A stretch of DNA of 64,000 nt from Prostheceraeus crozeri (Eukaryota; Platyhelminthes; Polycladida; Euryleptidae): the NCBI GenBank assembly GCA_907163375.1, contig CAJQUW010007076.1, positions 16,001 to 80,000 of the forward strand, given 5' to 3'. Positions 4,414 to 52,808 of this stretch are shown in pieces (position 1 is the first letter of the stretch; each line of letters starts with the position of its first letter). A program made the translations under genes and the position numbers. The notes under the pieces were generated by a model that was given only the letters and a program-made list of their open reading frames with translations, searched no databases and was not told the DNA's origin.

Positions 4414-4418
4414 TACCT

Positions 4419-4426
4419 ATGCAAAT
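4419..4426 (+). promoter_or_regulatory. ATGCAAAT motif upstream of the basic 118-aa gene
   Basis: Starts 46 nt before the ATG at 4465 and directly follows the previous stop codon. Same site in copy B at 35374. Confidence 0.45.
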
Positions 4427-4464: not shown

Positions 4465-4821
4465 ATGGCGAAACGTAAAATGGCGAAACGTAAAAGTCAA
4501 AAGTTTTCTTCAGCCATTCAAGCTCTCCGACGAATGAAAGCAAATCAGCGATACAATGCTATACGACATGCTAACGATAAATTCATTTGTGAAATTATTT
4601 CTCATGTGAGGAAGTTGAGGACGAAGAAATTAGCGCCAAAACAACGAAAGTTACTTAAGCGATATGCTACGAAATTGCGTTTCATCTCCAATCCTAAAGT
4701 CACCCTTCAAAGAAAGAGGAAAACTCTAACACAAAAGGGCGGTTTCCTTTCAGCAATACTTCCAATGATAGCTCCTGCCGTGGGCAACCTATTGGGTAAT
4801 ATCTTTGGCTCTAAGCGTTAA
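4465..4821 (+). CDS. Basic core-type protein with hydrophobic C-terminal tail, 118 aa
   Basis: Residues 1-90 are strongly basic (Lys/Arg with helical repeats), suited to DNA condensation. The last 25 residues are hydrophobic and glycine-rich, predicted amphipathic. The junction is QKGG followed by F94, reminiscent of adenain cleavage sites (x-x-GG), and the same Q-(R/K)-GG arrangement is present in the 151-aa protein downstream. This suggests a precursor processed into a DNA-binding part and a membrane-active or capsid-bound peptide, as for small adenovirus core and cement proteins; processing is inference. Copy C keeps the architecture with a divergent tail. Confidence 0.6.
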   Translation: MAKRKMAKRKSQKFSSAIQALRRMKANQRYNAIRHANDKFICEIISHVRKLRTKKLAPKQRKLLKRYATKLRFISNPKVTLQRKRKTLTQKGGFLSAILPMIAPAVGNLLGNIFGSKR

Positions 4822-4823
4822 TT

Positions 4824-4831
4824 ATGCAAAT
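4824..4831 (+). promoter_or_regulatory. ATGCAAAT motif upstream of the ATPase
   Basis: Starts 29 nt before the ATG at 4853, 2 nt after the preceding stop. Copy B equivalent at 35779. Confidence 0.45.
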
Positions 4832-4852: not shown

Positions 4853-5470
4853 ATGGATTTCAGACTTCAATGTGATAAAGTTCTGACTGTATCAGGTCCA
4901 TCTCATGCAGGTAAAACTGTTTTCACGCTGAATTTATTGGATAAAAGAAGGGAGTTGTTTAAGGAACCTATCAATCGAGTGATTTGGTGTTATGGTATTT
5001 ATCAACCGTCGCTGTTTCAGGAATTGCAAAGTCGCAACTTTATTCGACATGAAGGAATTATTCCAGTGGATAAACTTCAGTCTAATGATGTTGTTGTATT
5101 GGATGATTTATTAAAAGAAAGTAAGAATTCAAAAGATGTTACAGATATGTTCACTCGCGCAGCACACCATAAAAGGTGTTTTATCATTTATATTACACAA
5201 AATTTGTTTCCTGATGGAAAAGAAGCTCGTACACGAAACCTGAATACACACTATTATGCTATTTTCAAGAATCCGCGAGATAAAAGTCAATTTGAAATTT
5301 TAGCGCGACAAGTTGCACCCAGAGGATCAAAAGCCTTAATTGAAATTTTTCAAGCAGCTACTGAAAAACCATACGGTTACTTATTCATTGACTTTACGCA
5401 AGAGTGTCCGGAAGAATTTAGATTTCGAAGTGATATTTTGAAAACTCCCATGATTATCTACAAACTATGA
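4853..5470 (+). CDS. FtsK/A32-type packaging ATPase, 205 aa
   Basis: The start is set at the ATG at 4853. The frame is open further upstream, but only through a non-ATG start overlapping the previous gene. Walker A is SGPSHAGKT at residues 14-22, Walker B is VVVLDD at 80-85, and an arginine-rich stretch follows near 125. These features and the length fit the genome-packaging ATPases of Polintons, virophages and nucleocytoplasmic viruses, which drive DNA into preformed capsids. The stop overlaps the next ATG by 4 nt, suggesting coupled expression. Copy B differs by one residue; copy C has lost the Walker A motif. Confidence 0.88.
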   Translation: MDFRLQCDKVLTVSGPSHAGKTVFTLNLLDKRRELFKEPINRVIWCYGIYQPSLFQELQSRNFIRHEGIIPVDKLQSNDVVVLDDLLKESKNSKDVTDMFTRAAHHKRCFIIYITQNLFPDGKEARTRNLNTHYYAIFKNPRDKSQFEILARQVAPRGSKALIEIFQAATEKPYGYLFIDFTQECPEEFRFRSDILKTPMIIYKL

Positions 5471-6160: not shown

Positions 6161-6376
6161 ATGAAGCAGATGTGTTGCTTGCCATGTAATGAGCCGCCAG
6201 AGGTGAATGTCGTTGTCACTTGCACTTGCTGCGCCAGCTCTCATAATGAAACCCCTAAGCAATGTGAACACGATCGCAAAACCGCTAAAGCTAAATGCTG
6301 CAGTTGTTGTAAATGTAGAAAGGCAAGAAAACAAAAAGATGAGAAGGAGGAAAAAGAGTCAGTCGTCATCGACTGA
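6161..6376 (+). CDS. Cysteine-rich basic peptide, 71 aa
   Basis: Fourteen Cys residues arranged mostly as CC, C-x2-C and C-x-CC clusters, followed by a Lys/Glu-rich tail. The 3' end overlaps the start of the integrase frame (6339) in another frame. The Cys spacing suggests metal binding. It is open in all three copies, including the otherwise decayed copy C, which supports it as a gene, but no family was recognised. Confidence 0.5.
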   Translation: MKQMCCLPCNEPPEVNVVVTCTCCASSHNETPKQCEHDRKTAKAKCCSCCKCRKARKQKDEKEEKESVVID

Positions 6377-7427
6377 ACGTTTGAAGTCAATCTATTATGA
6401 TGTAAAACATCCGGCAGGATTTGCATCTATCAAGAAATTATCAAAAGCGAGTGGTCTTCCACAATCACAAGTGAAACGATGGTTAAAGGGTCAGGCTACC
6501 TATACACTCCACAAACAAGCGAAAAAGAAGTACCGCACCCGCCATTATATTGTTCATGACATCGATGAACAGTGGCAAGCAGATTTGTGCGATGTTGCCT
6601 CCATTTCAAAACATAACTCGGGCAATAATTTTATTTTAACCGTCATTGATATTTTCTCGCGTTATGCGTGGGCTCAACCTTTAAAAACTAAAGAAGGGAA
6701 AGGAGTAGCAAAAGCATTCCAAACAATTTTTCGAGAAGGTCGCATTCCAAAAAGAATTCAGAGTGATCAAGGAAAAGAGTTTGAAAATCAGCATGTGACA
6801 AGATTATTTGAGAGGCATGACATTGAGTTGTTTAGTGTAAAGAGCGCTTATAAAGCTGCACTCGTTGAACGTTTTAATCGCACATTAAAAAATCGCTTGT
6901 GGCGACATTTTACTGCCAACTTGACACAAAATTGGACAAAGGTTCTACAAGATACACTCCATGCCTACAATCACTCTATCCATCGTTCTATTGGACTCAG
7001 ACCAGTAGATGTAAATGCTGACAATGTAGATAAAGTGCGCGAATCATTCCAACGTAAACGCACTCATGTGAAAAGTGATGTGAAAATTGGCGATAAAGTT
7101 CGTATCTCAAAAGTGAAAAGTGTTTTTGCTAAAGGGTACCTCCCGAATTGGACAGAGGAGGTATTTACAGTATCAAGGATTAATCAAAAAGACTCTCCGA
7201 CCACCTACAAGTTGAAAGATTACGATAATGAAGAAATTGAGGGTAGCTTTTACCGCGATGAGATTGAGGTAGTCACTGAAAGTGAAACATATTTGGTAGA
7301 GAAAATCATTCGATGTAAAAAACGGCAAGGTGAAGAATGGTGTCTTGTTAAATGGACTGGTTATCCTTCAAGTATGAACTCTTGGATGCGCCGTGCCGAC
7401 ATCTTTCATCTAAGTGATCGACAGTGA
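6339..7427 (+). CDS. Polinton-type DDE integrase with chromodomain, 362 aa
   Basis: The ATG at 6339 gives a compact protein; an in-frame ATG at 6246 is an alternative but lies inside the Cys-rich gene. An N-terminal helix-turn-helix-like segment (25-52) precedes the retroviral-type rve core with catalytic D82, D143 and E177. Around residues 312-350 is a chromodomain with the VEKI and VKWTGYPSSMNSW signature. Integrase inserts the linear element and makes 6-bp duplications, matching those at the ends of copies A and B. The chromodomain may target methylated histones. Copy B differs by one residue; copy C has lost D143 and is frameshifted. Confidence 0.95.
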   Translation: MRRRKKSQSSSTERLKSIYYDVKHPAGFASIKKLSKASGLPQSQVKRWLKGQATYTLHKQAKKKYRTRHYIVHDIDEQWQADLCDVASISKHNSGNNFILTVIDIFSRYAWAQPLKTKEGKGVAKAFQTIFREGRIPKRIQSDQGKEFENQHVTRLFERHDIELFSVKSAYKAALVERFNRTLKNRLWRHFTANLTQNWTKVLQDTLHAYNHSIHRSIGLRPVDVNADNVDKVRESFQRKRTHVKSDVKIGDKVRISKVKSVFAKGYLPNWTEEVFTVSRINQKDSPTTYKLKDYDNEEIEGSFYRDEIEVVTESETYLVEKIIRCKKRQGEEWCLVKWTGYPSSMNSWMRRADIFHLSDRQ

Positions 7428-7430
7428 TTC

Positions 7431-7438
7431 ATGCAAAG
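7431..7438 (+). promoter_or_regulatory. ATGCAAAG motif upstream of the pVI-like gene
   Basis: Starts 38 nt before the ATG at 7469 and 3 nt after the integrase stop. Present at 38389 in copy B and at about 62889 in copy C. Confidence 0.4.
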
Positions 7439-7926: not shown

Positions 7927-9204
7927 ATGGAGTGTAAAACTTCCGGTTTTTGTTTGTTTGATCAACAAGCCATACAGACAGATATTCTTAGTTCAAGTAT
8001 TGTAGATTATCATCCTCGAACAGCTGAGAATGCTGGCCCCATTGAATTTGTTATTCCTGGTGGTAGTGATGACTACATAGATTTGAGTTATGCGATGCTT
8101 GATTTGAGGTTTAGAATTCAGCAAGCAGATGGAACTGCTATTGACGATGCACATAAAGTTGGACTGAACAATTTACCATTGACTACATTACTTCGCGATG
8201 TTTCTCTAACGATTGGAGAGCAGCAGGTGGAAGGTGGTCAAAGCGATTATCCCTATAAATCATATTTCAATCATGTATCACAGTTTCATCCAGCAGCACA
8301 AAAAAGTCATATGGAAGCCATGGGATGGTACAGAGATGAAGCAGGAAAATTTGATGTTGAAACAAACAGTGGCTTTGTAAAGCGATCTGCTATGATTAAA
8401 GATAGTAGAGTATGTCAGCTATATGGTCCGCTGAATTTAGACTTCTTTAGACAGTCAAAGTTTTTACTCTGTAATACCAGCATGCGACTCAAGCTGACAT
8501 TGAATAAGCCTGAATTTGCGCTGAATGCATTTGCTAAAGTTGACAATTTTAGAATTCATGTGGAAGATATTGCACTTTACATTCGTCGAGTAGTACCGAA
8601 TCCAAGTGTCATTAGAGGGCATGCTGAAGGTCTTAACCGCCAAAATGCCATTTACCCCGTTCAGCATACAAAGCTTCTCACCTTTACAATTCCGAAAGAT
8701 CAAAAGAGTTTCATGAAAGATGGCCTCTTTCCATCGGAAGCACCGAAGCTCCTCATGGTGGCAATGGTTGAAAATGATGCATTTAATGGTAATATAAAGA
8801 AGAATCCTTTCAATTTTAAACACAATCAGTTAAGTGAAATTGCTTTACGTGTTAATGGTGTGAGTCATCCTGGTCCACCCTACAAACCAGATTTTGCTTC
8901 GGATCAATTTATGCGCAGTTATGTTGATTTTATGGATGTCTTTGGCTTTTACAATACGGATGACACCAACGGACTGACTATGAAAGAGTTTAAGAGTGGA
9001 TATACTATTTATGCATTTGATTTGACTGCTGACAGCGATATTAGTGCACCCTATCGTCAAGCGAACGTGCCTCATAATATTCGTTTGGATTTGACGTTCA
9101 AAAGAACACTACCTGAGACGATCAATGTATTAATTTATGCAGTCTTCGATTCAAATATTGAAATTACAAAGTATCGTGACGTGATTCTTCAGTATAATCG
9201 TTAA
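7927..9204 (+). CDS. Capsid-type protein, F54H12.2-like, 425 aa
   Basis: The N-terminal third has the signature of proteins annotated in many invertebrate genomes as F54H12.2-like: IEFVIPG followed by DDYIDL, a DVSLTIG strand and a YPYKSY turn. These are repeatedly linked to Polinton/adintovirus elements, and the beta-rich composition suits a jelly-roll capsid protein. No other large beta-rich protein in the cluster is a better major-capsid candidate, so that role is proposed here without structural proof. The stop shares its last base with the protease ATG (TAATG). Copy B differs by a single residue; copy C is frameshifted near 63735. Confidence 0.65.
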   Translation: MECKTSGFCLFDQQAIQTDILSSSIVDYHPRTAENAGPIEFVIPGGSDDYIDLSYAMLDLRFRIQQADGTAIDDAHKVGLNNLPLTTLLRDVSLTIGEQQVEGGQSDYPYKSYFNHVSQFHPAAQKSHMEAMGWYRDEAGKFDVETNSGFVKRSAMIKDSRVCQLYGPLNLDFFRQSKFLLCNTSMRLKLTLNKPEFALNAFAKVDNFRIHVEDIALYIRRVVPNPSVIRGHAEGLNRQNAIYPVQHTKLLTFTIPKDQKSFMKDGLFPSEAPKLLMVAMVENDAFNGNIKKNPFNFKHNQLSEIALRVNGVSHPGPPYKPDFASDQFMRSYVDFMDVFGFYNTDDTNGLTMKEFKSGYTIYAFDLTADSDISAPYRQANVPHNIRLDLTFKRTLPETINVLIYAVFDSNIEITKYRDVILQYNR

Positions 9205-9665
9205 TGAGTTGGTTGACTGCTGACGATATTAAGACTAAAGTGCAGCGTAATGCAGACGAAGCGACGTTGAAAGCTTTCGATAATGTCTATTCACTCGATA
9301 CCTTACCACCTGCAGTAAATCACTATCCCATCTTTATTGTGCTAAACACTCATTCGCAGAATTTAGGCGGTGAGCATTGGAAAGCGATCTTTATTGGAGA
9401 AGACCGACGTGGTGAACTATTTGACTCTCTTGCTCAACCTCCAAATATACCAACACAGCAGTGGTTGAGAAAACATACGCGTCAATATCAGCGAAATGAA
9501 CGCATACTACAACATCCACTTTCATCAACGTGTGGTGCTTTTGTACTGTACTTCATCTTAAGACGTTTACATGTATCTCGATTTGCATCTGTTATTCAAA
9601 ACTTTTCATGTAATCCATCCTCTAATGAAAAAATGATTTGTAAGTTCTATCATGATTTGAAATAA
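9204..9665 (+). CDS. Adenain-like cysteine protease, 153 aa
   Basis: The catalytic residues are in the order of adenovirus protease and Ulp1: GGEHW with His58, ELFDS with Asp74, Gln103, and STCGAF with Cys110. The length is close to other Polinton proteases, shorter than adenovirus protease. The enzyme is expected to cut virion precursors at Gly-Gly sites, and two candidate sites are visible in the 118-aa and 151-aa proteins. The start overlaps the capsid gene stop by one base. The stop codon lies within an AATAAA signal. Confidence 0.88.
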   Translation: MSWLTADDIKTKVQRNADEATLKAFDNVYSLDTLPPAVNHYPIFIVLNTHSQNLGGEHWKAIFIGEDRRGELFDSLAQPPNIPTQQWLRKHTRQYQRNERILQHPLSSTCGAFVLYFILRRLHVSRFASVIQNFSCNPSSNEKMICKFYHDLK

Positions 9666-9696
9666 AAACATCATGTTGGAAAAATTGTTTTTTATT
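9661..9696. terminator. Convergent poly(A) signals
   Basis: AATAAA on the plus strand at 9661-9666 contains the protease stop codon. AATAAA on the minus strand at 9696-9691 contains the stop of the TBP-like gene. The two convergent gene blocks therefore end within 36 bp. Same layout in copy B. Confidence 0.65.
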
Positions 9697-10237
9697 TTAC
9701 AATCCGCTGGGTACGTACATACTCAATGAGATAGTCTAGGATCACATTTGCTTGTACATGAGATTTTAGTCCAGTAATGATCACTTTACTATTATGAAAG
9801 ATTGCCACATGCACAGGTAACCAACAACTAATGAGAGCTGCAGGAAAAAGTTCGGGTTCATAACACAAACTGTAACTGCTGGTACGAATCTTCAAAAATG
9901 ATAGACTGTCACTCAATTGAGTAGAGATCACCATATTGTCCACAGTCAGATTCGACATCACACACCTCTCCCTCTTCCATATCCGACGTAGTAGTCTTTG
10001 TAGCTCTAAGCGCATTGACTGCGCCGATGAATGAGAAAGGGCGCCGAGAATCTGTACAGTCCCATTTGGGAAGAGTTGAAGATTCCGTGAATTGTTCATC
10101 TTCACCACTAACATTTGAGGACGGCCCGGGTAATACTTGCTGTTTGGAAGCTGTTGGTGTAATGTTGTGAGATCGATTTTGGTGTAGAGTCTGAAGCGAC
10201 GGAGAATGTTGACGATGGTGTAGCGATGGCGCTTCAT
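9692..10237 (-). CDS. TATA-binding-protein-like protein, 181 aa
   Basis: The ATG at 10237 gives a protein of the size of the TBP core. It has the two direct repeats of the TBP saddle: repeat 1 about 7-88 and repeat 2 about 93-175. Repeat 2 is clear, with YEPELFP at 126-132 and F147-x3-KVIITG-x-KS, and repeat 1 has the equivalent YYP and LFPNGTV-x-ILGA. Of the four phenylalanines that TBP inserts into DNA, three appear kept (F56, F131, F147), while the fourth position is Pro40. TBP nucleates transcription pre-initiation complexes, so the element may direct its own promoter class. The frame overlaps the preceding PC4-like ORF. Copy B differs by one residue. Confidence 0.75.
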   Translation of the reverse strand: MKRHRYTIVNILRRFRLYTKIDLTTLHQQLPNSKYYPGRPQMLVVKMNNSRNLQLFPNGTVQILGALSHSSAQSMRLELQRLLRRIWKRERCVMSNLTVDNMVISTQLSDSLSFLKIRTSSYSLCYEPELFPAALISCWLPVHVAIFHNSKVIITGLKSHVQANVILDYLIEYVRTQRIVK

Positions 10238-10559
10238 GATGAAAGAATGAGTAAATTGAGCGATGTACCTTCCTTTTATACTTTTCCCAACTACCTTGAT
10301 GAAATGTGAAGTTAGTATGAAGTTGGGAATGATAGAGTTGAATTCGCCGATTGTTGACGCGCAGCCAGATGCGATTTCCAATACGTGAATGTCTTTTCAT
10401 ATAGAAGTATTTCAAGTCCTTCATGATATGATGTAGAGATTGAAAATGACGATAAGATAAAGCAAACTCTCTTCTCACATTTCCAGTTGAATCTTTGAAA
10501 TAGACGTTTCGATCATGATCCGTTTCAATACGTTGTAGGGAATCTAATTTCCAACTCAT
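9909..10559 (-). CDS. PC4-like protein with long tail, 216 aa
   Basis: Residues 1-107 align by eye with almost the whole 118-aa neighbour: LDSLQ start, a D-x-D/N-R/G-NV-x-FK strand, an L-x-RHF/RQF helix, then IWL and the WEKYKRKVHRSI end. The strand pattern followed by an L-x-x-x-F/W helix recalls the PC4/p15 ssDNA-binding coactivator domain; this fold call is tentative. The second half (108-216) is Ser/Thr/Gln-rich and overlaps the TBP-like gene in another frame, so it may be partly a by-product of that overlap. An ATGCAAAT motif lies 35 nt upstream. Confidence 0.5.
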   Translation of the reverse strand: MSWKLDSLQRIETDHDRNVYFKDSTGNVRREFALSYRHFQSLHHIMKDLKYFYMKRHSRIGNRIWLRVNNRRIQLYHSQLHTNFTFHQGSWEKYKRKVHRSIYSFFHHEAPSLHHRQHSPSLQTLHQNRSHNITPTASKQQVLPGPSSNVSGEDEQFTESSTLPKWDCTDSRRPFSFIGAVNALRATKTTTSDMEEGEVCDVESDCGQYGDLYSIE

Positions 10560-10581: not shown

Positions 10582-10938
10582 TTAAGATTTGCATAGTAGG
10601 GCGATGAACTCACGACGAATAAATGTCATGATGGAGCGATGTATATATCTTCTATACTTCTCCCAATTGTATTTGCGAAATGAGAAACAGTTTGCGGAAT
10701 GAGAATGGTAGATTTGAATTTCATTTCTGTAATGTTGAAGCCAAACTTGATCACCCAAGGAGATGAATCTTAATGTTTCAAAATATTCCAAATCCCTCAT
10801 GATATCATTGAGGTTGACAAATTGTCGCCATGTTAATGTAATTCCTCTTGATGTATGACCATGAGAATTTTTGAAATGTACGTTTCCATCACGATCAACT
10901 CTGATATATTGTAGAGAGTCCAAAATCCAAGTCTTCAT
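10582..10938 (-). CDS. PC4-like protein, tandem paralogue, 118 aa
   Basis: The ATG at 10938 is chosen over an upstream TTG. The whole protein is one copy of the domain described for the neighbouring 216-aa protein, so a tandem duplication is evident. The helix segment RQFVNLNDIMRDL and the C-terminal IHRSIM block are the most conserved parts. PC4-like proteins bind single-stranded DNA and modulate transcription or repair; placing two beside a TBP-like gene suggests a transcription module. Its last codons contain the ATGCAAAT motif of the next gene. Identical in copy B. Confidence 0.5.
   Translation of the reverse strand: MKTWILDSLQYIRVDRDGNVHFKNSHGHTSRGITLTWRQFVNLNDIMRDLEYFETLRFISLGDQVWLQHYRNEIQIYHSHSANCFSFRKYNWEKYRRYIHRSIMTFIRREFIALLCKS
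10587..10594 (-). promoter_or_regulatory. ATGCAAAT motif upstream of the 216-aa PC4-like gene
   Basis: Minus-strand ATGCAAAT, 35 nt before the ATG at 10559, embedded in the last codons of the preceding gene. Confidence 0.4.
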
Positions 10939-10944
10939 GATGTT

Positions 10945-10952
10945 ATGCAAAG
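10945..10952 (+). promoter_or_regulatory. ATGCAAAG motif in the divergent promoter
   Basis: Lies between the diverging 118-aa (minus) and 465-aa (plus) genes, 29 nt before the ATG at 10974. Conserved at 41903 in copy B. Confidence 0.45.
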
Positions 10953-10973: not shown

Positions 10974-12371
10974 ATGTCGTTTTATCATATTTTGCTTAGC
11001 AATGCGGCTACAAAGAGATTTACTAGTAATCGAGCTGCACTCTTTTCTACTCCCATTGATCATGTACAACAGCTAAATGGAAATTGGGAAGTGGGTGTCA
11101 CTCAACTTGTTTATAGCAACTGTGTCTATACTTTTGATCATGAGGTGATGACTATTAATATGAGGCGTACAGCTGCTTACCAATGTGAAAAGGGGTGCCG
11201 AGTATACATTCCACAGTGGTCAAAGAAAGATCTCTTATCATGTAAAAAGTTTATATATGATTTCTTGAATAAAGCGTGTAAACATATTGTCCAATTTACT
11301 CCGCACAATGATGATTATAATTATGTACATCATGTAGTTGAGAAAGATTGGATTGTTGGTTTAAGTCCAAGTTTAAGAAATGATTTAGGCTACCTCGCTA
11401 GCGCCTTAACAAGCTATGATAATTTTAACGTTAATTACCACATAAGTGGTCATAAACAGTTAATATATCGAGAGGAAGCTTATTATGTAGATCTTATTCC
11501 AAGAAATGAGAAGACGTTGGTGAAGAAGATTGTGATTAAGCCAAGAAAGACAAACATGACTCCTGAAACATTATTGAAGAAATTTAATTATCTCCTTCGA
11601 GTTGATGGTAAACAAGTGGCAACATTGACTTATATCAAATCATCTAATCATATTGCAATAAGCAAATTAAATGATGATGATCTAGTATTAGTTTGTTCAA
11701 AAGATTTTCATCAGTTCTTACGACATCGTTCTGCAGCTGTTCATGGAAAATCTGATATGCAACATTTACCATGTGAAAGGCCAAATCAATTTGATACAGA
11801 ATGGGCCGTATCTTTATACAGAAAGTGTGTAGAGCCTTTTGGTGGTTTCTTACATGAAACAAGAGTGTTGATGCCTCGCATTATTACTTCGGTTAAATTG
11901 GTTGTAGATTATTTAAATGAAGTGATTAATGAGCAACATATTTCATTTTCTGAAAAAGAAGGTACTTTGTCTCTCACTATAAATGGAAAAGGTATTGAAC
12001 TAATTATGGATAAAACTCTAATGGACATTTTGGGTTTTGATCAAAATATCTTTAAAAGTGGTACTGTAACCAAAGCTAGCGCAGACATGTCGCTATCGCG
12101 TCGTATTAACTATTTTCAGATATATTCCAATATTGGTGAAGATGTACGTGTGGGAGATGTTGAAGCTCCATTGCTAGCAATGATACCATACCAGCCAAAA
12201 AGCTGCAGTATTTTATCTGAGCATACTTTCAAGAAAGTGCATTATACAAAGCTGAAATCAAACTACATCCCACAAATTGATATTGCCATTTATGATGATG
12301 CTGGTGCGTTGATCCCTTTTCATAAAGATGCTGTGACAAGTATTACACTCCATTTCCGAATGAAGAGTTAA
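10974..12371 (+). CDS. Large virion-type protein 1, 465 aa
   Basis: Start set at the ATG at 10974, directly after a TATAAAA string that is too close to be a TATA box for this start. The N-terminus (LSNAATKRF followed by a NWEVGV-x-QLVY block) matches a widespread, uncharacterised protein family of invertebrate Polinton-like elements, and it is paralogous to the next gene. The protein is beta-rich with two similar halves; a minor capsid or spike role is plausible but unproven. Its stop overlaps the ATGCAAA motif of the next gene. No differences from copy B were noticed. Confidence 0.55.
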   Translation: MSFYHILLSNAATKRFTSNRAALFSTPIDHVQQLNGNWEVGVTQLVYSNCVYTFDHEVMTINMRRTAAYQCEKGCRVYIPQWSKKDLLSCKKFIYDFLNKACKHIVQFTPHNDDYNYVHHVVEKDWIVGLSPSLRNDLGYLASALTSYDNFNVNYHISGHKQLIYREEAYYVDLIPRNEKTLVKKIVIKPRKTNMTPETLLKKFNYLLRVDGKQVATLTYIKSSNHIAISKLNDDDLVLVCSKDFHQFLRHRSAAVHGKSDMQHLPCERPNQFDTEWAVSLYRKCVEPFGGFLHETRVLMPRIITSVKLVVDYLNEVINEQHISFSEKEGTLSLTINGKGIELIMDKTLMDILGFDQNIFKSGTVTKASADMSLSRRINYFQIYSNIGEDVRVGDVEAPLLAMIPYQPKSCSILSEHTFKKVHYTKLKSNYIPQIDIAIYDDAGALIPFHKDAVTSITLHFRMKS

Positions 12372-12378
12372 TGCAAAA
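12371..12378 (+). promoter_or_regulatory. ATGCAAAA motif upstream of virion-type protein 2
   Basis: Formed partly by the preceding stop codon (TAATGCAAAA). It is 40 nt before the in-frame ATG at 12411, which fits the spacing at the other genes better than the ATG at 12381. Confidence 0.35.
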
Positions 12379-12380
12379 GT

Positions 12381-13931
12381 ATGCTATTATATTTTTCCAA
12401 TGTGAATAATATGGAAAGTGAAAATAAGGACTCGTTTCTAATCTACTTGCCCAGTAATGCTTCTATGAATAAATTTCCCAAAAATAAACCATCAGACTAT
12501 CGAGTAGAATTAAATCGGCCACTGCATTTAGAAGGTGAATGGGAGGTTGGCGTTTCTAGTATTTGCTATGATAGCAATATTCAGAATGTGAATGATTTGG
12601 AAGAAATGATATTGACTCCTCGCACCCATGATGGAATAACGATGAATAATGCATTCCACTTCCCATACAATTTAACATCAGATGGAAAATGGAACTATGA
12701 ATGGATTCAGATAAAATCAGATTCTTATGAGCCATTTGGGAATGAGAAAATTATTAAGGCATTCAACAGTGGTAATACTTCCATCATGAAGAATAAAAAT
12801 CAGAAAGCTTATGAGTTTACTATCTATCATTGGAGTGGGAGACAGTTCCTCCGCTTTCATTCTTTTACTAAAGGTCTTACGCTGAGGTTGGATAGTGAAT
12901 TCTATCCGCATCTTGGTTTTGGCCATGGACTACATCTAACGTCAATTGCTACTGCAAATGTTAGAAAAGTTTATTCAAATCGAATCAACAAATTTCATTA
13001 TAGATTTAAAATATTTGATGAAGATGTTGTAGAATGCGAAGAACGCATCATTTTGAAAAAGCGTGGTGTTCAACCTTTATCACTTATTGAGTTAGTAAAA
13101 CGATGGAATGAGACTGTGGGTAAGAAGTATGGAGAAAAAATTATGGCGGACAAAAATAAGTTGGTTATTCAGAAATATAATGACAAACTTACAGTTTATT
13201 TCTCTCCAACCTTGCGTCATTTTGTAAGACATTATACGCCTATTATTGGAAGCGGTGTGGTGTATGGTTCTCATGAATATCACACTAAAGCTGATTCAGT
13301 TAATGATGAATGGTGGGTGGACATCTATGGTGATCGCATCAAGAAAATTTACCAGTCTTATGAAGAATCTAAAGTTGCTATCAATATAATGCCGCGTCTA
13401 TATCATACAGTTGAAAGCTTCATTCATGTAGTAAATCCTTATATACAACAGAAGTTGAAGCATGTGATGAAAAGTAAATATGATGCAAAGACACACCACA
13501 TTTCGTTTTCAATTGAAAATCAACGCGTTGTTCTGAAACTGGGTGATGACATTCAATGTCAATTGAGTAAAAATTTGAAAAAACTCTTTGGCTTTTCAAT
13601 GCTACAAACTGTGTTTGCTGCTGCGCATACGATTGGTATAGAAACACCAATGACACTTGATAAACATGAACAGCACCTTTACATTCAAAGTGATTTGATT
13701 TTACCTATTTCTGTTGGCGAGAAAAAAGAATACATTTTACGTGATTTCATTCATGATAAAGACGCTTCATATGGAATAGTCGAGAAGATGTTTGAATCTA
13801 TTTTCTATCATCCCGTCGTCAAACAAACTATACCCTCTATTGCTATCAAAATTACCAATGGTTTACAAGAGTGTATCCATGTGAAAGATACTAAATCCCT
13901 CGTAACTTTAGTGTTTCGGAAAACAAAGTGA
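12381..13931 (+). CDS. Large virion-type protein 2, 516 aa (506 from the second ATG)
   Basis: A paralogue of the preceding protein: an IYLPSNASMNKFP start and an EWEVGVSSICYD block are shared landmarks of the family. Two in-frame starts are possible; 12411 places the conserved N-terminus right at the start and fits the upstream motif spacing, so the 10-residue extension from 12381 may be untranslated. Like its neighbour it is predicted beta-rich and may be a capsid vertex, fibre or assembly protein; no function is established from sequence. AATAAA follows at 13955. Copy B differs by three residues. Confidence 0.55.
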   Translation: MLLYFSNVNNMESENKDSFLIYLPSNASMNKFPKNKPSDYRVELNRPLHLEGEWEVGVSSICYDSNIQNVNDLEEMILTPRTHDGITMNNAFHFPYNLTSDGKWNYEWIQIKSDSYEPFGNEKIIKAFNSGNTSIMKNKNQKAYEFTIYHWSGRQFLRFHSFTKGLTLRLDSEFYPHLGFGHGLHLTSIATANVRKVYSNRINKFHYRFKIFDEDVVECEERIILKKRGVQPLSLIELVKRWNETVGKKYGEKIMADKNKLVIQKYNDKLTVYFSPTLRHFVRHYTPIIGSGVVYGSHEYHTKADSVNDEWWVDIYGDRIKKIYQSYEESKVAINIMPRLYHTVESFIHVVNPYIQQKLKHVMKSKYDAKTHHISFSIENQRVVLKLGDDIQCQLSKNLKKLFGFSMLQTVFAAAHTIGIETPMTLDKHEQHLYIQSDLILPISVGEKKEYILRDFIHDKDASYGIVEKMFESIFYHPVVKQTIPSIAIKITNGLQECIHVKDTKSLVTLVFRKTK

Positions 13932-13954: not shown

Positions 13955-13960
13955 AATAAA
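13955..13960 (+). terminator. Poly(A) signal after the virion gene block
   Basis: AATAAA 24 nt after the stop of the 516-aa gene. The sequence shared with copy B ends at about this point. Confidence 0.6.
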
Positions 13961-14110
13961 AATATGTATATGAAAAAGTCTTTTCACAGATATAGGGGGA
14001 ATGGGCTGACTGTAGGCATATATTCACAAGGAAGAAACGATCTCATGCGATACATAAAACAACCATGTATATCTACAAAAAGCAACATCAAAATACTGAG
14101 TTAAAGTTGA
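13961..14110. other. Short intergenic region, no gene seen
   Basis: AT-rich convergent 3' region between the 516-aa gene and the polymerase. The homology with copy B breaks down here. Confidence 0.6.
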
Positions 14111-17100
14111 TTATGTCAATACATCTCCTGAATGTGGTAGCGTGAGTTTTATTCTTTTGGGTGGAGGTATGTTTGTGTCAGGATGTCCATGTGGAAGAGA
14201 TGTGTTATGTCCTATCCAACACCTCTTATCCTCCCATGCTGAAAGTGCTCGTTTCTTGAACGTGTACGTTTTCACAGTATGAACTTGAGATTTTAAGATT
14301 GTCATATTGACAAACGTTATAGTTTTATTTTTATAGGCCTTCTTATAGGACCGATGTTTCATTTTATGAACAATGGATTTTGATATACCTTTAGCACGCT
14401 TAATACTATCTGCACATTCTTTTAGTTTCATGGAATACATTTTAGGACGGAGGAGAATCATTTCATCTATTTCCTTTCCTGCTGTTTCATCCTTAAAACA
14501 ACCAAGTTTGGCTTTATTCTGTATGGAATAGAGTGGATGAGTGGGATTGTAGTTAGATGTGTCGAAATATTTTTCTAATGACTTACCTACTTCATTAAAA
14601 TTTAAATCTTTTTGAGTGGTAATTCCTAAAAAGAAACTATCTGTATCACCACCCAGCAAGCGAACCTCTTTTACGAGAGGGCATGGTTTTAATATTTTGT
14701 AGAAGAGTTGATACATTTCAAGCTTGGAATAATCTAAAACGGCTTGCCCAATATAGATGGGTTTGCACAACTCAACTTCTGATTTAATCATTTTAACACC
14801 TACAAGATCCTCATCGATGATGTCTCTATCAATGAAAAGAGGTGATGAGGTCAATTTGTGATATTTTTGTTCATCAACGACTAGTTTGTAATTCATACGT
14901 TTTCTAACATCCTCCATGGTCTTTCCGAATAGACTGTTATTCTTATATTTATAAAAATCCTTTTCAAAATTATTTTGGGCGAGTGCACGTTTTTGACTGT
15001 TACTATCTATGTAGGGTTTGAGGAAGGCTTTCTGTCTAAATTTGATAATGCGGTGAACTGACTTTAGAAGCATGCCCATTTCTAAATAGAATTTTAATAT
15101 GCAGAAGTGTACGAGATAATTTTTCTTATCATATTGGGTGAGTAAAAGTTTGCGGCATGGTTTGTACCTTGGCTGTCCACACTCTGTTAAGTTATTATGA
15201 AATTGTGACATGAATGGTGAAAACATATCTTCAGTCACTTCGCCAGATTCAGGTGCGAGTGGGAAATCAGCAGTTTTATTTTTAATACTATTTGGATAAA
15301 TCAAATCCACTTCAAAATAATATCCCCAATCACCTTCATCTGGAATATTCAGTATGTTTGAAGGGTTGGAGTAATACTCAAGCTCATTTTGATTTAACCA
15401 ACTAAACTCGGAATGAGGTAGTGGTTTAGACAGTGAACTGCCATATAAATTATTTTGGTCATAGTACTTTAGGTGGATATGATCATCACCTACTGTTTCA
15501 GATTTTATATGATGTTTATTTACAAATGTGAGACCACCGCGTATTCCGCGCTCAAATATATTATACATCTCCGGGTCTTGTAAGAGATGAATGGTCTCAC
15601 CAGTCATTTTAAAGGCTGATTTAAAGGACATGGCTGGTAGACTGACAAAGTGGACAGGATCTAATTTGTCTTCTTCTAATGCCACTCGTCGAAACTCCTG
15701 AAAGACATCAGCCAGCAAAATGACATCTAATTCTAAGTAAGCGATCATATAATCGCCAAACGTTTTACAATTAAATTTTAACCATGCCTCTTGAGCATGT
15801 TCATAGTCCTCTACTGGACAATCTTCACCCGTCAAATCGTTTTTGAATTTGTCAATGGAAGGAAGGGTTGTTTCATTTAGTTTAGACATTGAGCTAAAAT
15901 ACGCATAAGGAAAGACTCCTTTGCGAGTGATTATTTCATCCGTTAAGTTTGGATAGTGTTTCTTCAAAGTTTGACTATGGGGAAGAAACTTGAGATTACG
16001 AACGAGAGAAGCTAGTGACGCTGACATGAATTGAAATGAATCTAAAAATTTTATTTCGAAGAAGACTGTCTTATTTTCTTTAGTTTTATCTACTGGTACT
16101 TTTGCTGTCATTGCCATGAATTTTTCTCTCGTTTGTGCTATTACATTAAACTGCCACGATTTCATCTGGCTCAACCCTCCTTTTATGAGCATATGACTGT
16201 CATAGCCCTTAAAGTTATGAAAAATGACGGGTAGTACACGACGTCTCAACCTAAGTGAAAAGTTACATTTGGAGCAGAGTGCGTTTCTAAATTTACCAGT
16301 GATGTGATCATGATCACGCACTTTCTTAATTTTATCGTCATCAAACGTTTTATGACATTTAGGACAGGATGTGCAACTTTCAAATTTTTGTTTGTCTTCA
16401 TCTGACATATGTAGTGACTTACGCTGCAATTGGGAATCATATGATTGTTGAAATTTAGCAGCTTTATCGAGAAATTCTAGAAATTTTGAAATGCAATCTT
16501 CACCTTGCCAAGTATGCATTTTGTTTTGTCTATTCCTAAAGTGGTCATGCCATACTTCATAGCAGGATATGGCTGCTGGCTTGTGGATGATATCATCAAT
16601 GTAGCATTCTATGTCTGCGTAAATGACACGCAGGGGACTTAATTCGTCACCATTATCCCTATGTGAAAATATTTTATCTTTGGGCATGCGTTCCATTTGT
16701 AATTTACCTCGCTTGCACCATTCATAGTGAGTTTCAAATTTATCTTTACTCCAAAATGAGCGGATGCAGCGGTCGCATACAAAATGTTCACCTCTTTTAG
16801 AGTGCCCCAAGTGAGTGTACAAGCGAGAGATTTTGGGAATACCACAGTAGTGCCATTCCTCGCTATCATCTTGTTTTACTAATAAGAGGTTGACTACACG
16901 TTCATAACAAGTTGAACGTGAATTATAGCGGGCACCCTTCAACCCCTTCTCCCACACGTGAACGACAATTTTAATCTTATTATGTTTTTCGAACGTTTCT
17001 ACATCTTTGATTTTCATGTTGTTACTATCACAACCTTCAAAGTCTAGTTCATCCTCCCACTGTCTATAGCTATAGGTGCGATCTCGATGCGCGTTGATAT

Positions 17101-18085
17101 CATTATAGTGAAGGATGGATAGGACTGCATATTTGAAACACTGTGATTTACAATCAACATTGATGACAGCTTTCTTATTATACAACGTTTTTGGTAGTTT
17201 AAATGTGCCTCGAGCTGCATGACTTTCTAATAGGGAAATTTTGAATATGGCTGAGTCCACACCATCAAAAATGAGAGCGCTGTCGCGTTGATTGAATTTA
17301 TCTACATTTGATTTTAAACATTGAATGTGAAAATTTAGCCAAGACTCGCAGTCTACAACTTCGGTTGCGGAAGAGGAAGGAACATGAAACTGTATTCTCT
17401 CCGTCACTTGACCCGTTTGAAAATCTATTTTAATATATTTTAGTTTAAGGTAGATGAGCGCCTTCATTCTAAAATTGTCTAAATTATTGAAGAGCGCTTC
17501 GATAATGTTAGAATTTTGAAGGAGCCACTCAGGAAAATCTACAATTTGAGTATTGGACTCCATGCAGTAGTCGCGTACTAAATTATTATGTGAAACATTA
17601 ATGAGGGAGATGGTAGAGGTACCGTTGGTGTAGTGATCATTTGCATGCGTGTGTTGAAGTCTGTGCGAAGATCGCTGAAAGTGACTATCAAAAGAAAGAG
17701 GGCACAAATCGCAAGGAAAGGAGATGTCATCGTCAGAATCAACTTCACCTCCGGAGATTGACGCCGCTTTGCGTTGACACACACGTTGTTTGATGTGTCG
17801 AAGGAGACTGTGCTTCCTTGTAAACATATGTCCGCAGTCGGCACATTCCCACTCGTTGCCTTGCCGCGAGAGTCCTGAGCTGGAACTCACATCACCTGAA
17901 AGAGAAATCATTCTTTCATCTCTGTTCAAGCCTCAGTGTAGTGTTACAACCTACCTTGACTCAATAACTCTAAACTTTCCTCGAGAAGAGAGGGCGTTGG
18001 TGATGAAGTTGATGCCTGAAATTGAGGAAGATGCTATTAGTCACACGTTTGAGGGAGATGAGAGAGGAAATTTTCAACTTACCAT
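14111..18085 (-). CDS. polB: Protein-primed family B DNA polymerase, three exons, 1282 aa
   Basis: Exon 1 is only the ATG (18085-18083), followed by a GTAAGT donor. Exon 2 is 18015-17955 and begins GCATCAACT. Exon 3 is 17895-14111. The sum, 3849 nt, is divisible by three. The product has two C2H2 fingers (about 39-61 and 83-103) and a Polinton-specific N-terminal domain (157-244). Exonuclease motifs are D-I-E near 449, HNFKGYD near 584 and Y-x3-LD near 740; a Cys/His cluster (VRDHDH) precedes motif II. Polymerase motifs are A (YYDQNNLYG, about 835), B (NNSLFGK, about 1008) and C (GDTDS, about 1105). It replicates the linear element from the TIRs. Copy B's enzyme is clearly diverged. Confidence 0.92.
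17896..17954 (-). other. Polymerase intron 2
   Basis: Minus-strand GTAGGT donor and TTTCTCTTTCAG acceptor, 59 nt, phase 1. Splicing removes the in-exon ATG start that the unspliced frame would use. Confidence 0.7.
18016..18082 (-). other. Polymerase intron 1, directly after the start codon
   Basis: GTAAGT donor abutting the ATG, CTCAATTTCAG acceptor, 67 nt, phase 0. This mirrors the intron at the left end of the element. Confidence 0.7.
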
Positions 18086-18820: not shown

Positions 18821-18880
18821 TAAATGTTTATTTCGTATTATCTTTGCTTTCATACTGACTTACTTGAATGGGGTTTTAGT

Positions 18881-19495
18881 GAATAATTTAACCATGTATA
18901 CTTTTTCATTTGGAAATAGTAGCACGCTTAGTTTAACTTGTAAATCTTATAACATTTCATATGGGTGATAATGGTAGATGAAATAGTGTCAAATAAATTA
19001 AGATAGCTTACACTTCTGATACAGGGATAGCAATCGACTGCGATCCATGTGTAAAGAGCTTGTTAGACTACGGATGGGCTTAAGTGGATGATTTAACCAT
19101 GTATACTTTTTCATTTGGAAATAGTAGCACGCTTAGTCTAACTTGTAAATCTTAAAACATTTCATATGGGTGATAATGGTAGATGAAATAGTGTCAAATA
19201 AATTAAGATAGCTTACACTTCTGATACAGGGATAGCAATCGACTGCGATCCATGTGTAAAGAGCTTGTTAGACTACGGATGGGCTTAAGTGGATGATTTA
19301 ACCATGTATACTTTTTCATTTGGAAATAGTAGCACGCTTAGTCTAACTTGTAAATCTTAAAACATTTCATATGGACGATGATGGTAGATAAAATAGTGTC
19401 AAATAAATTAAGATAGCTTACACTTCTGATACAGGGATAGCAATCGACTGCGATCCATGTGTAAAGAGCTTGTTAGACTACGGAAGAGAGAAGTG
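18881..19495. repeat. 205-bp tandem repeat, three units
   Basis: Units start with GGATGATTTAACCATG (variant in the first) at 18881, 19086 and 19291. Each contains GATAGCAATCGACTGCGATCC. The first unit is the most diverged. Copy B has four units of 206 bp in the same place. No ORF runs through; role unknown. Confidence 0.85.
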
Positions 19496-21071: not shown

Positions 21072-22301
21072 TTAGTCATCCTTAGGCAGTCTCGCGGGCT
21101 TCCTGATTGAAAATTTGTGGAGATGGCCGCGCATTCGTAAGCTGGCATGGAGACACTTCTTGCTCGGATGACCATTGTAACATACTATGCTTTCGTCGAG
21201 ACTTTGATTGACGAGTACTTGGCCGGCCAAATGATTATCCCGAATAGGGATGTGAAACTCAAACAAACGATCCTCATTCACACGTTCCCACTCATCCCTC
21301 ATGCGCTCCAACTTCTCACACGCCTGCCTCTCATCACCCCGCCGAGCCACAGTCCTCTCCAACTCAACATTCTTCGCTCTCAACACACTCATCTCCTTCA
21401 TCATCTCCTCAAACTTCGCCTCTGCATCTCTCATTCTTCTCTCCGCAGCACTCGCCCTCTTCTCACACTCATCATTCTTCTCTTCCAACTCTCGCGTCTT
21501 TTTCTTCAAATCAGTCACACTACGCCTCATTCTAATGTTTTCATCCGCCACCTCCTTCGACTTCAGTTCCTTCTTTTTTAACTCATCCAACTCCTTCACA
21601 ACTTCATCCTTCACTTTCTTCAAACTCTCATACTTATTCACCAACAAATCATGCGCCATCTGCTGCGAAACATGCCTCTTCTCCTCATCCTTCAACCACC
21701 TCGCCGACTGCACACGAATCCCACCACTCTTCACTTTTGGGGAAGATGAGCTCTTCGGGGGGTCGGTGATGACGATGTTTGACACCTCCGACGACGAAGA
21801 GCTCAACTTCCTCACACGCTTCCTCACACGCTCCCTATCTAAATCCACATCATCCTCATCATCACTCTCAAGCACTCTCTTTCGCCCAATCTCACCCTCC
21901 AACGACGCAACCGCTCTCGCCAACTCATCATTCTCCACAGCATTCCCACTAGCATTCTCCACAGCATTCCCACTAGCATTCTCAACAACATTCCCACTAG
22001 CATTCTCAACAACATTCTTGGCCTCTTTCTCCAACATTCGCTCCTTCTCAGCATTCATCAACTCCACAAATCTCAAATCGGTCACCAACCCTCCTACACA
22101 CTCACCATGCCTCCGATAAAACTCGGCCTCCTGCCCAACAACCAACAGCACCCTGCACTTCACACAGGCAACCCTATTCAGGATAACCATGTGGTCGGCC
22201 CCTGCCTTCCTTATGTGGTCCCTGAGACCGTCTCGGCGGTTGATTCGACCGCATACGCACATTTTGATGTGAAATTTTTTGTTTTTGTCGTTATTGACCA
22301 T
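21072..22301 (-). CDS. Spliced coiled-coil protein with zinc-binding N-terminus, 409 aa
   Basis: Residues 14-37 carry a C-x-C...H...H cluster. Around 98-125 is a tandem VENASGN repeat (four near-copies). A Ser-rich stretch with an RVRKRVRK nuclear-type signal follows, then a long heptad coiled coil (about 205-345) and a conserved C-terminal domain with paired Cys. A non-coding first exon ends at 23206 (GTAAGC donor) and joins 22329 across an 876-nt intron. A further small intron (21067-21007) follows the stop. Copy B's counterpart (50907-52097) keeps the same plan but is strongly diverged, so the gene evolves fast. Function unknown. Confidence 0.6.
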   Translation of the reverse strand: MVNNDKNKKFHIKMCVCGRINRRDGLRDHIRKAGADHMVILNRVACVKCRVLLVVGQEAEFYRRHGECVGGLVTDLRFVELMNAEKERMLEKEAKNVVENASGNVVENASGNAVENASGNAVENDELARAVASLEGEIGRKRVLESDDEDDVDLDRERVRKRVRKLSSSSSEVSNIVITDPPKSSSSPKVKSGGIRVQSARWLKDEEKRHVSQQMAHDLLVNKYESLKKVKDEVVKELDELKKKELKSKEVADENIRMRRSVTDLKKKTRELEEKNDECEKRASAAERRMRDAEAKFEEMMKEMSVLRAKNVELERTVARRGDERQACEKLERMRDEWERVNEDRLFEFHIPIRDNHLAGQVLVNQSLDESIVCYNGHPSKKCLHASLRMRGHLHKFSIRKPARLPKDD

Positions 22302-23447: not shown

Positions 23448-23650
23448 GAGCTCCAGTGTGGTGAAAATTTTGAAAAATTTAAAACTTCCGAATTTCGACC
23501 TGGGACCTTTACCAAAACATTTTTCATCAAATTTCACTGACCTCCCCCCCCCCTCATTCACAGAAATTTGATGAAAAATGTTTTGGTGACGGTCCCAGGT
23601 CGAAATTCCACACTTTGGAAAATTTTCAAAATTTTACCCATACAAAGTCA
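23448..23650. repeat. Large imperfect hairpin with a C-run at its centre
   Basis: About 23448-23540 is the reverse complement of about 23560-23650 (GAATTTCGACCTGGGACC versus GGTCCCAGGTCGAAATTC), with a C-run of about ten bases near the centre. It marks where the module orientation flips inside the right sub-terminal region. Confidence 0.7.
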
Positions 23651-25018
23651 CTCTGACACTTAGGATTTTTTCAGGTGAGCGAGCTCCGACCTAAAATCTT
23701 GTAACCGCTCTAACTTTTGAACGAAGACAGATAGGAACAAGCCGATTCTTTCACTGAATTTGTCTCACTCTTAGCTTTCAAACGAGCTATCGCACGACAA
23801 AATCCGTCCACTGGAAGCCAAAATCGAAGCTAGCTGTCCAGAGGGGGGGGAGGTCAGTGAAATTTGATGAAAAATGTTTTGGTGACGGTCCCAGGTCGAA
23901 ATTCCACACTTTGGAAAATTTTCAAAATTTTACCCATACAAAGTCACTCTGACACTTAGGATTTTTTCAGGTGAGCGAGCTCCGACCTAAAATCTTGTAA
24001 CCGCTCTAACTTTTGAACGAAGACAGATAGGAACAAGCCGATTCTTTCACTGAATTTGTCTCACTCTTAGCTTTCAAACGAGCTATTGCACGACCAAATC
24101 CGTCCAGTAGAAGCCAAGATCGAAGCTAGCTGTCCAGAGGGGGGGGAGGTCAGTGAAATTTGATGAAAAATGTTTTGGTGACGGTCCCAGGTCGAAATTC
24201 CACACTTTGGAAAATTTTCAAAATTTTACCCATACAAAGCCACTCTGACACTTAGGATTTTTTCAGGTGAGCGAGCTCCGACCTAAAATCTTGTAACCGC
24301 TCTAACTTGTGAACGGCTGGTCCGATTGACTCGCAACAAAAAATGTTGTCGAGCAGTTTTTTCTCCTCTTTCAAACGAGTAGCTGTAAGACAAAATCCGT
24401 CCACTAGAACCAAAGTTAGAAGATTGCTGTCGGGGGGGGGGGAGGTCAGTGAAATTTGATGAAAAATGTTTTGGTGACGGTCCCAGGTCGAAATTCCACA
24501 CTTTGGAAAATTTTCAAAATTTTACCCATACAAAGTCACTCTGACACTTAGGATTTTTTCAGGTGAGCGAGCTCCGACCTAAAATCTTGTAACCGCTATA
24601 ACTTTTGAACGGCTGGTCCGATTGACTCGCAACAAAAAATGTTGTCGTGCAGTTTTTTCTCCTCTTTCAAACGAGTAGCTGTAAGACAAAATCCGTCCAC
24701 TAGAACCAAAGTTAGAAGATTGCTGTCGGGGGGGGGGTCAGTGAAATTTGATGAAAAATGTTTTGGTGGCGGTCCCAGGTCGAAATTCCACACTTTGGAA
24801 AATTTTCAAAATTTTACCCATACAAAGTCACTCTGACACTTAGGATTTTTTCAGGTGAGCGAGCTCCGACCTAAAATCTTGTAACCGCTCTAACTTTTGA
24901 ACGAAGACAGATAGGAACAAGTCGATTCTTTCACTGAATTTGTCTCACTCTTAGCTTTCAAACGAGCTATCGCACGACAAAATCCGTCCACTGGAAGCAA
25001 GCTGTCCAGGGGGGGGGG
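23553..25018. repeat. Right sub-terminal array of ~295-bp modules separated by G-runs
   Basis: Five modules, each ending in a run of 8-11 G (about 23843, 24139, 24432, 24728, 25009). Each contains TTTGGTGACGGTCCCAGG (GGTGGCGG in the fifth) and GACACTTAGGATTTTTTCAG. Two variants of the inner part alternate. Copy B has only two such modules (52809-53424). Confidence 0.8.
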
Positions 25019-25532
25019 ACGTCAGCCGAAAATTTTTTCTCTCCGATTGACTTGAAACTCACCCTACCGATGCAGAATTTCACGCTGAATCCGAATCTGA
25101 CCTCCGTTTTCTCATCCGATGCTTCGTTTGGACGCTACACACCAAAACGTCCCAAATTCTAACTCTGTTAAAATTTTGAAGAAAAATTTTTTCTCACCGA
25201 TTGCCTTGAAACTCACCCTACCGATGCAGAATTTCACGCTGAACACGAATCCGACCTCCGTTTTCTCATCCGACCACTCCTTCCACTCGAAACAACCCAT
25301 TTTACAACCCAACATTCAGCAGATTGCACCAAAAACATCACACACTATAGCCTCAAGACTAATCCTGGCGGTCGCCCAAGTCCACCACGACACTCTATCG
25401 TTCCAGAGGGGGGGGGCACTCAGACACGAAGCACCACGGCGGCCGACCACGACACTCTGCCGTGCCAGAGGGGGGGGACTCAGCGATGGCGGCCATCTTG
25501 CGCGGTCCAGAAGTGGAGTTTTGCTTACTACT
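24900..25532. repeat. Right terminal inverted repeat of copy A
   Basis: Reverse complement of the left TIR, ending GCTTACTACT. It lacks the duplicated 85-bp unit of the left arm. Confidence 0.85.
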
Positions 25533-25538
25533 TTTATT
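25533..25538. repeat. Target-site duplication of copy A, right
   Basis: TTTATT, identical to 1065-1070. Confidence 0.9.
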
Positions 25539-26590
25539 ATCAAAAAGGAAATGTCCTTGAGTAGCAAATTTACATAGTTTTATAAAGACATCTTTACCGT
25601 ATTTAGGTTTATTGGAAGAGTTTTCTCTATAAACTAAATCCGCTGCCATCTGAATAGTTTCATCGACTGGAATATTTGTGAATAGAGAAACTACATCAAA
25701 GCTCACTAAAATATTTTTATCATTAAACAGATTCCTATGTTCATTAATATTATTGATCAAGTGCTGTGTCGACTTCAGCATATATGTATCGTCAATTTGT
25801 TTTTTAATAATGCTATCTAGATACTTTGCTAAATTATAACTAACAGAGCCAATCGTACTTATAATCGGTCGCATCGGCTTATTAACTTTGTGAACTTTAA
25901 CAGTACCATACATCCTTCCGGGCTCGCTACCCGACGGCATAATGTACTTATATGTATTATCACTCACATATCGCTTCACATATTTACATAAATATCTGTA
26001 AACTCGGCTTTCTTCGGTAACGGTTGGATGTTTGGTTATATCATCCTCAGCTGGTACCATCACAAATTTACTATTATCATTCAAGATATCATACATCTTT
26101 GAGTTATAATCTTCAGTGCTAACAATGGCCAGACCATTACCTTTGTCATACGAGCATATACGTATGTCTTTACGCTTAGCCAGTTTACTTAGAATTTCGT
26201 GTATTCTTTTATTTTTCTGTTCATTACAAACTTTTTTACCATCTTTAATAAAATTAGTGACTAAGTTCTGTATTTCTTGTCTAATAGTTGGGGTCAAATC
26301 AAATTGATCATTATTTTTCATGTTTACAGCTATTGATTTTTCCACTTCGTATTTTAGTTTATCACTATCTAGATTCTTAGGGATAATGCTGTGTTTTAAA
26401 CCATACCTTAAGAGTTCGTTCTCCTCTAAGGTTAGTTGATAGTTACTGAGGTTGACTATGGCGTCCGGTACACTCGTTCGATTCGAGAACCAAAGTCTTT
26501 TAAGTTTATCATTCTGCCTAACTTCAACAGTTTTGATTTTATTTTTTACAGATTTTACTACAAGTAGTTTCAGCAGAACAAAACGAAACC
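25533..26590 (-). pseudogene. Penelope-like reverse transcriptase, N-terminal half
   Basis: The minus-strand frame is open from about 26590 to the Polinton junction. It shows a VNLSNY-x-LT-x-EE-x-ELLRYGL region, a GMYGTVKVHK/PMRPIIS block (RT fingers) and the SFDVVSLFTNIP motif A. It ends at FDNK, where the Polinton is inserted; the frame resumes at 1070. The fusion seen beyond the junction into TIR sequence (to 25395) is accidental. Confidence 0.85.
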
Positions 26591-30302: not shown

Positions 30303-30310
30303 ATTTACAT
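30303..30310. repeat. 8-bp target-site duplication of the host transposon, left
   Basis: ATTTACAT, repeated exactly at 55203-55210. Confidence 0.85.
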
Positions 30311-30813
30311 TAGGGTGATTAAAAAATCGAAATTTTGAAATCTCTCTGGGCGAAGGGCTTAAAGTGTTCCTTTATGCCCACAATGATAACACGTAAATTT
30401 TTTTGAAGAATATTTAGATTTAGAGGTCGCGCAACAGGGCCAAAGTTTTCATTTTTTCGTCATTTTTGGCATTTTTGCCACTTTTTCATGTATTCGATAT
30501 CTATGTCAAAATACTGAATTGGCAATGTATACCATTTCTCTCATCAAAACATAATACAAGTTTTCCTCTGATATTGTTTTTGATAGTCTGCAGCTATTCC
30601 TGTTAAAGCTATCTTATATTGAAGTACCCCTATATTCTACTTATTACGGCCCTCAATAGTAGTCTTCAAAATATTCACTAAAAACAATTCCAATGGGTGA
30701 TCAAAGTACATGTATGCATGAATGAATCGAAAATTGATCTCTATGCACAGAAGAGATGCAAGTACCAATAATCTACATCAAATCAACAGATTCAATCAAA
30801 AGCGCATTTCTTC
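30311..30813. repeat. Left TIR of the hAT-like transposon
   Basis: Near-perfect reverse complement of 54699-55202. Confidence 0.9.
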
Positions 30814-49890: not shown

Positions 49891-49950
49891 TAAATTTTTA
49901 TTTCGTATTATCTTTGCTTTCATACTGACGTACTTGAATGGGGCTTCAGT

Positions 49951-50917: not shown

Positions 50918-50949
50918 CATGGGTCGTTCTCCGTCCACCGACACTCCTC

Positions 50950-52782: not shown

Positions 52783-52808
52783 CCCTGTGAATATGCAATC
52801 GATAAGAG

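Follow-up and report, generated by a model that had tools for sequence, protein, structure and literature searches.

A divergent TATA-binding protein gene in a Polinton element of the flatworm Prostheceraeus crozeri

Can a small mobile element carry its own basal factor for transcription initiation, and what would such a factor do there? The TATA-binding protein (TBP) is commonly seen as belonging to cells or to giant viruses. A 64,000-nucleotide stretch of the polyclad Prostheceraeus crozeri (assembly GCA_907163375.1, contig CAJQUW010007076.1, positions 16,001 to 80,000; hereafter the window) contains two Polinton/Maverick elements, A (1071-25532) and B (32043-54012), each with a gene for a TBP of 181 amino acids. 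On balance it is probable, judging from the sequence, that this divergent but complete TBP picks out the promoters of the element itself and brings in host TFIIB, through which host RNA polymerase II is recruited. The presence in a Polinton of a TBP gene lying in doubly read DNA means that integrated elements as small as this can bring along a basal initiation factor of their own, and it suggests that such an element can set where transcription of its genes begins. The system offers a testable simple case of the way in which a mobile virus may uncouple its transcription from that of the host, bears on the origin of viral TBPs and, for biochemistry, supplies a small TBP in which a single wedge residue has been replaced naturally.

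The TBP gene, its family and its carrier

The gene of element A (9692-10237, minus strand) was delimited by its open reading frame (ORF) from the ATG, a Pfam match, a fold search and an alignment. Sequence, profile and fold searches all rank TBP first, confirming a divergent but complete TBP. The original prediction described a minus-strand protein with two TBP repeats, the signatures YEPELFP and F-x3-KVIITG and the length of a TBP core. Both signatures are present, PF00352 matches with 71.6 bits (curated cut-off 22.9) in two stretches that correspond to both repeats, and the human core used for comparison (matching PDB 1nvp exactly) likewise has 181 residues. The predicted fold is two-lobed, and in Foldseek and VIA only TBP entries occupy the top ranks, which bears out the saddle structure that the prediction had proposed to check. 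Like eukaryotic and archaeal TBPs (PF00352), the protein has two lobes, the same fold and length, three wedge phenylalanines and the YEPELFP stirrup; unlike them, it is only about 22% identical to the human core (39/177 positions) and has a proline in place of the first N-lobe wedge phenylalanine. The four DNA-wedging residues we take to be F197, F214, F288 and F305 of human TBP. The last three are phenylalanine in the element protein and the first is the proline, so that three of four are kept, as had been claimed. In the copy of element B (40650-41195, minus strand) two codons are changed, one synonymously and one non-synonymously (V to M), where the original prediction spoke of one change; these changes are too few for a selection test.

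The protein belongs to a family. Among 97 candidates, 61 homologues were found at E<=1e-3, with 34-81% identity, and since all 61 carry PF00352 the TBP match is more than chance. Residues were counted over 62 members (these homologues and the window's TBP) aligned to the human core. F214 and F305 are invariant (62/62 each) and F288 is kept in 61/62, and the position of F197 holds proline in 58, glutamine in one and a gap in three. The C-lobe glutamates that presumably contact TFIIB are equally constant (E284 in 61/62, E286 in 62/62); around them L287 is found in 55/62 and P285 in only 28/62, and G290 is replaced by alanine in 62/62. According to PMC7221094, TFIIB is contacted by two glutamates of the C-lobe, C.L3.2 and C.L3.4; the paper gives about 40% conservation of C.L3.2 in viral TBPs and describes the N-lobe as the docking side for host regulators. 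We infer from the alignment that the glutamates of YEPEL correspond to C.L3.2 and C.L3.4.

In BFVD, 29 viral models match the element TBP at E<=0.001 with a query-normalised TM of 0.41-0.69, for example that of Heterosigma akashiwo virus 01. Of these, 18 are named, mostly large DNA viruses with none labelled Polinton, and 11 are unnamed. PHROGs returned nothing for TBP, a phage collection gave no match to it, and pattern scans of viral contigs and one of genome contigs found no relative with short peptide patterns, which miss distant ones.

The carriers are Polintons by their structure. Both have AGTAGTAAGC ends, that is (AGT)2 (AGTAGT) termini with inverted repeats, and 6-bp target-site duplications (TSD) on both sides, TTTATT for A and TCCATC for B. 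Their size of 22-24.5 kb, ends and TSD fit what PMC8097293 gives for vertebrate Mavericks. A retrovirus-type integrase with a chromodomain (6207-7427, plus strand; Pfam rve 1.3e-10, Chromo 6.2e-7), is a further feature of Polinton/Maverick elements. The earlier view of a virus-like transposon with its own TBP-like protein is supported. In that paper the vertebrate elements are alike in AGTAGT ends, 6-bp TSD, size range, integrase and gene blocks on two strands, but the eight core genes that it names include no TBP.

A TBP has been reported in mirusviruses and in elements of putative mirusvirus origin (PMC10675990 and PMC10132985). No TBP in a Polinton is described among the titles and abstract beginnings listed for Polinton/Maverick and TBP, a search that left subscription literature outside, so that an earlier report is possible. 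Neither TATA nor TBP appears as a word in the main text of PMC11071308, PMC8097293 and PMC10120064; TATA is absent from the main text of PMC4028283 and in PMC12220804 stands only inside an author name.

An overlapping gene and its paralogue

The TBP gene shares half of its DNA with a second gene on the same strand. ORF2 (9909-10559, minus strand) encodes 216 amino acids, of which residues 1-107 form a predicted PUR-like (Whirly/PC4-class) two-repeat domain and a tail begins at residue 109; its codons from 109 on occupy the DNA of TBP codons 1-110 in a different frame. The ORF2 copy in element B (40867-41517, minus strand) has one amino-acid change. ORF3 (10582-10938, minus strand; 118 amino acids from its ATG), identical in element B, is a paralogue of the ORF2 N-domain with 44% identity over 112 residues, and has four database matches including the window's own.

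ORF2 has 19 homologues. Eighteen align over 97-100% of their length at 44-99% identity, and the nineteenth (P0085) comprises 147 aa, a fragment from a contig of 635 nt. For 15 of the 62 TBPs it was calculated how often the ORF2 frame would be open by chance under the TBP protein sequence and the codon use of the element, and for each the answer was no more than 1 in 2000. TBP residues 37-66 are recovered from the second frame, at a single register, in 18/18 tailed ORF2 homologues, with scores of 85.1-99.0 compared with a largest score of 39.9 in 40 shuffles per protein. This sample leaves out P0085 and contains P0067, which is 99% identical to the window, so that 17 are informative. ORF2 homologues can be detected only with ORF2 open, which biases the set towards open frames; the bias is answered because the chance of an open frame is so low.

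In the reverse test, where the ORF2 tail was sought in the second frame of TBPs, P0001-P0005 alone give a strong signal, with weaker ones in P0006, P0037 and some further TBPs. The tail is not seen in most other TBPs, and therefore the partnership of TBP and ORF2 is not family-wide; the overlap is probably a derived trait of one clade. Pairing TBP and ORF2 homologues by contig through exact co-encoding was dropped, long runs being found only for P0067 (80 codons against the window's TBP and 53 against P0002). Among the 1178 pairs the runner-up reaches 35 codons, and most of the 32 pairs listed lie in about one register. The ORF2 protein P0067 comes from a public JGI contig of 10.3 kb and marks a near-identical element in a public dataset.

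The product of ORF2 is a probable nucleic-acid-binding partner, as its N-domain has the predicted two-repeat fold of single-strand-binding proteins of the PUR/PC4 class. It differs from the Pur-alpha/MRP/Whirly/PC4 proteins in sequence, with 9% identity to the first-listed fold match. No PUR or PC4 family is among the 15 Pfam families listed for the 24 members scanned, and no PDB sequence matches ORF2 below E 0.099.

A candidate promoter motif and the role of the protein

A short word stands ahead of several genes of element A. The 7-mer ATGCAAA occurs within 60 nt ahead of the first ATG in 6/19 genes versus 11/855 other ATGs, and a top 7-mer equally frequent arose in 1/2000 null draws (13/2000 for 6-mers). 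The sites are TATGCAAA at 4418-4425 (plus strand, 47 nt ahead of the ATG at 4465), 4823-4830 (plus, 30 nt ahead of the ATPase ATG at 4853), 10588-10595 (minus, 36 nt ahead of the ORF2 ATG) and 10944-10951 (plus, 30 nt ahead of the ATG at 10974), CATGCAAA at 7430-7437 (plus, 39 nt ahead of the ATG at 7469) and AATGCAAA at 12370-12377 (plus, 11 nt ahead of the ATG at 12381 and 41 nt ahead of an in-frame ATG at 12411). The spacing to the ATG is put at 29-46 nt, except at 12381, where it is 10 nt (40 nt from 12411). The remaining 13 genes, including PolB, integrase, ORF3 and TBP, are without the motif. Ahead of TBP lies TATAAAAG (10273-10280, minus strand), 43 nt from the ATG and within the ORF2 coding sequence; a TCATTCT noticed by eye after it at about the usual distance is presumably initiator (Inr)-like. 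The motif sites recur in copy B and, where covered, in a third copy (C), which starts at about 56500 and runs out of the window ahead of its TBP region; that DNA is 95-99% identical. The promoter motif results as a whole are exploratory.

In the proposed mechanism, the element TBP would bind the ATGCAAA motif ahead of the six genes and work with host TFIIB. Use of the host factor is suggested because the TFIIB-contact pair is kept and no TFIIB-type domain is found in 20 element proteins (Pfam, E<=1; very small or spliced ORFs lay outside the scan). The change of the N-lobe phenylalanine to proline may give the protein a preference for DNA or partners unlike that of host TBP, ORF2 and ORF3 may act with TBP as PC4-like single-strand-binding cofactors, and the system might mainly serve virion genes. 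The full version of this proposal is tentative and rather doubtful: a compact initiation kit in which a TBP tuned to a private TATGCAAA box ahead of virion genes and two PUR/PC4-like cofactors, one of them written over the TBP gene, would be plugged into host TFIIB and polymerase II without a viral TFIIB. If it holds, the TATGCAAA box ahead of ORF2 would make the circuit self-reinforcing.

Known viral systems offer partial parallels. Giant-virus TBP-like proteins and the mirusvirus TBP (the latter in PMC10132985) are likewise the TBPs of virus-type genomes. As PMC7221094 finds, almost all viruses with a TBP-like protein have a viral TFIIB-like protein, poxviruses excepted, and the TFIIB-contact positions are variable. 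The element, in contrast, keeps the contact pair, and the TFIIB homologue in the same genome that marks an orthogonal viral TBP-TFIIB system is absent among those 20 proteins. The TBP mimics of beta- and gamma-herpesviruses and poxvirus VITF-3 are also virus-encoded TBP-like factors for a viral promoter class; descriptions of them speak of TBP mimicry or of a TBP/TFIIB pair that is atypical, whereas the element protein matches the canonical Pfam TBP in both lobes.

Several results weigh against the reading of a TBP that marks the element's own promoters. The motif came from exploring one element, and gene starts were refined after the first look (5/19 genes and 6/500 null draws before). Its 8-mer version is weaker (16/2000 null draws), and the word is not clearly enriched window-wide, with 28 occurrences versus 20.9 expected, a number reached by 7/100 shuffles. 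ATGCAAAT doubles as the octamer motif that host POU factors recognise. The 120 nt ahead of the 19 starts show no enrichment of canonical TATA words (TATA[AT]A in 3/19, shuffled mean 3.6), which leaves canonical TATA boxes unsupported as element promoters. The ORF2 tail is not seen in the second frame of most other TBPs, and ORF2 has no significant Foldseek match, its PUR likeness coming from the predicted fold alone.

Other explanations start from the same residues. With the TFIIB face kept (E284 61/62, E286 62/62) and the N-lobe altered (F197 to proline in 58/59), the protein could be a competitor that titrates host TFIIB or host promoters and damps host transcription, the element genes relying on host TBP; the TATAAAAG box ahead of the TBP gene itself would fit this. 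Such a role is unlikely, as three of the four DNA wedge residues hardly vary, a constraint that a decoy and nothing else would be free of, and six element genes share a motif. A function in DNA handling, be it genome replication, packaging or the choice of integration sites, in which ORF2 and ORF3 would be single-strand-binding proteins beside the element polymerase, draws on the predicted ORF2 fold and on the location of all three genes on the strand of the PolB-type gene; it leaves the conserved TFIIB-contact pair unexplained and is quite unlikely.

A TBP captured from a host or a giant virus and carried along with no function would account for the low identity to human TBP (39/177) and the lost wedge residue. 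This is very improbable in view of 61 homologues with near-invariant functional residues, a gene intact in two copies and a TBP kept though half of it is dual-coding. A weak part of the structural model, residues 111-140 with low confidence, speaks against a TBP and for an unrelated alpha-beta protein with chance motifs, an idea that has next to no probability and is refuted by the first rank of TBP in sequence, profile and fold searches alike.

Other genes and the layout of the window

The genes of element A form blocks on both strands, with TBP, ORF2 and ORF3 on the strand of the PolB-type gene. The latter (14111-17929, minus strand) encodes 1272 amino acids, which include an endonuclease VII domain (7.5e-7) and, at the N-terminus, a C2H2-like finger under the Pfam cut-off. 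Its DxNNLYG- and DTDS-type motifs, found by eye, we take to be of DNA polymerase B type; Pfam gives no PolB match up to E 1. On the plus strand lie a basic protein with a weak adenovirus pX-like match (4465-4821; Adeno_PX 0.0024, under cut-off), a probable packaging ATPase (4853-5470, first ATG at 4853; weak AAA_14 and Pox_A32 matches, the latter 0.025, under cut-offs) and an adenain/Ulp1-like cysteine protease with a weak match (9204-9665; Peptidase_C48 0.001, Peptidase_C5 0.048, under curated cut-offs). For the capsid/penton candidate ORFs 7927-9204, 10974-12371 and 12381-13931, Pfam gave no family with a usable E-value.

Left of 13958-13996 (A) and 44916-45081 (B) the two elements share 99.3% identity, and on the right about 83%, as if they had swapped modules. 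The A/B omega is 0.12 for the PolB-type gene and 0.20 for 13 left-side genes pooled (29 synonymous and 22 non-synonymous changes; gapped alignment, no codon dropped), and because these values are low the element has recently been under selection. The right-end ORFs 21072-22301 (A) and 50907-52097 (B) are related but have diverged (25% identity, E 6e-17). Tandem units of 205/206 bp lie past the start of the PolB-type gene (18871-19484 in A, 3 copies; 49938-50763 in B, 4 copies), and units of 296-307 bp by the right terminal repeat (23563-24998 in A, 4.9 copies; 52808-53426 in B, 2 copies). Element B is flanked externally at both ends by a 98.8% inverted repeat (30309-30820 and 54692-55204), as if it sat within another inverted structure. 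Element A seemingly splits a Penelope-type reverse transcriptase ORF, whose parts were recognised by eye in the flanks at 537-1082 and 25395-26345.
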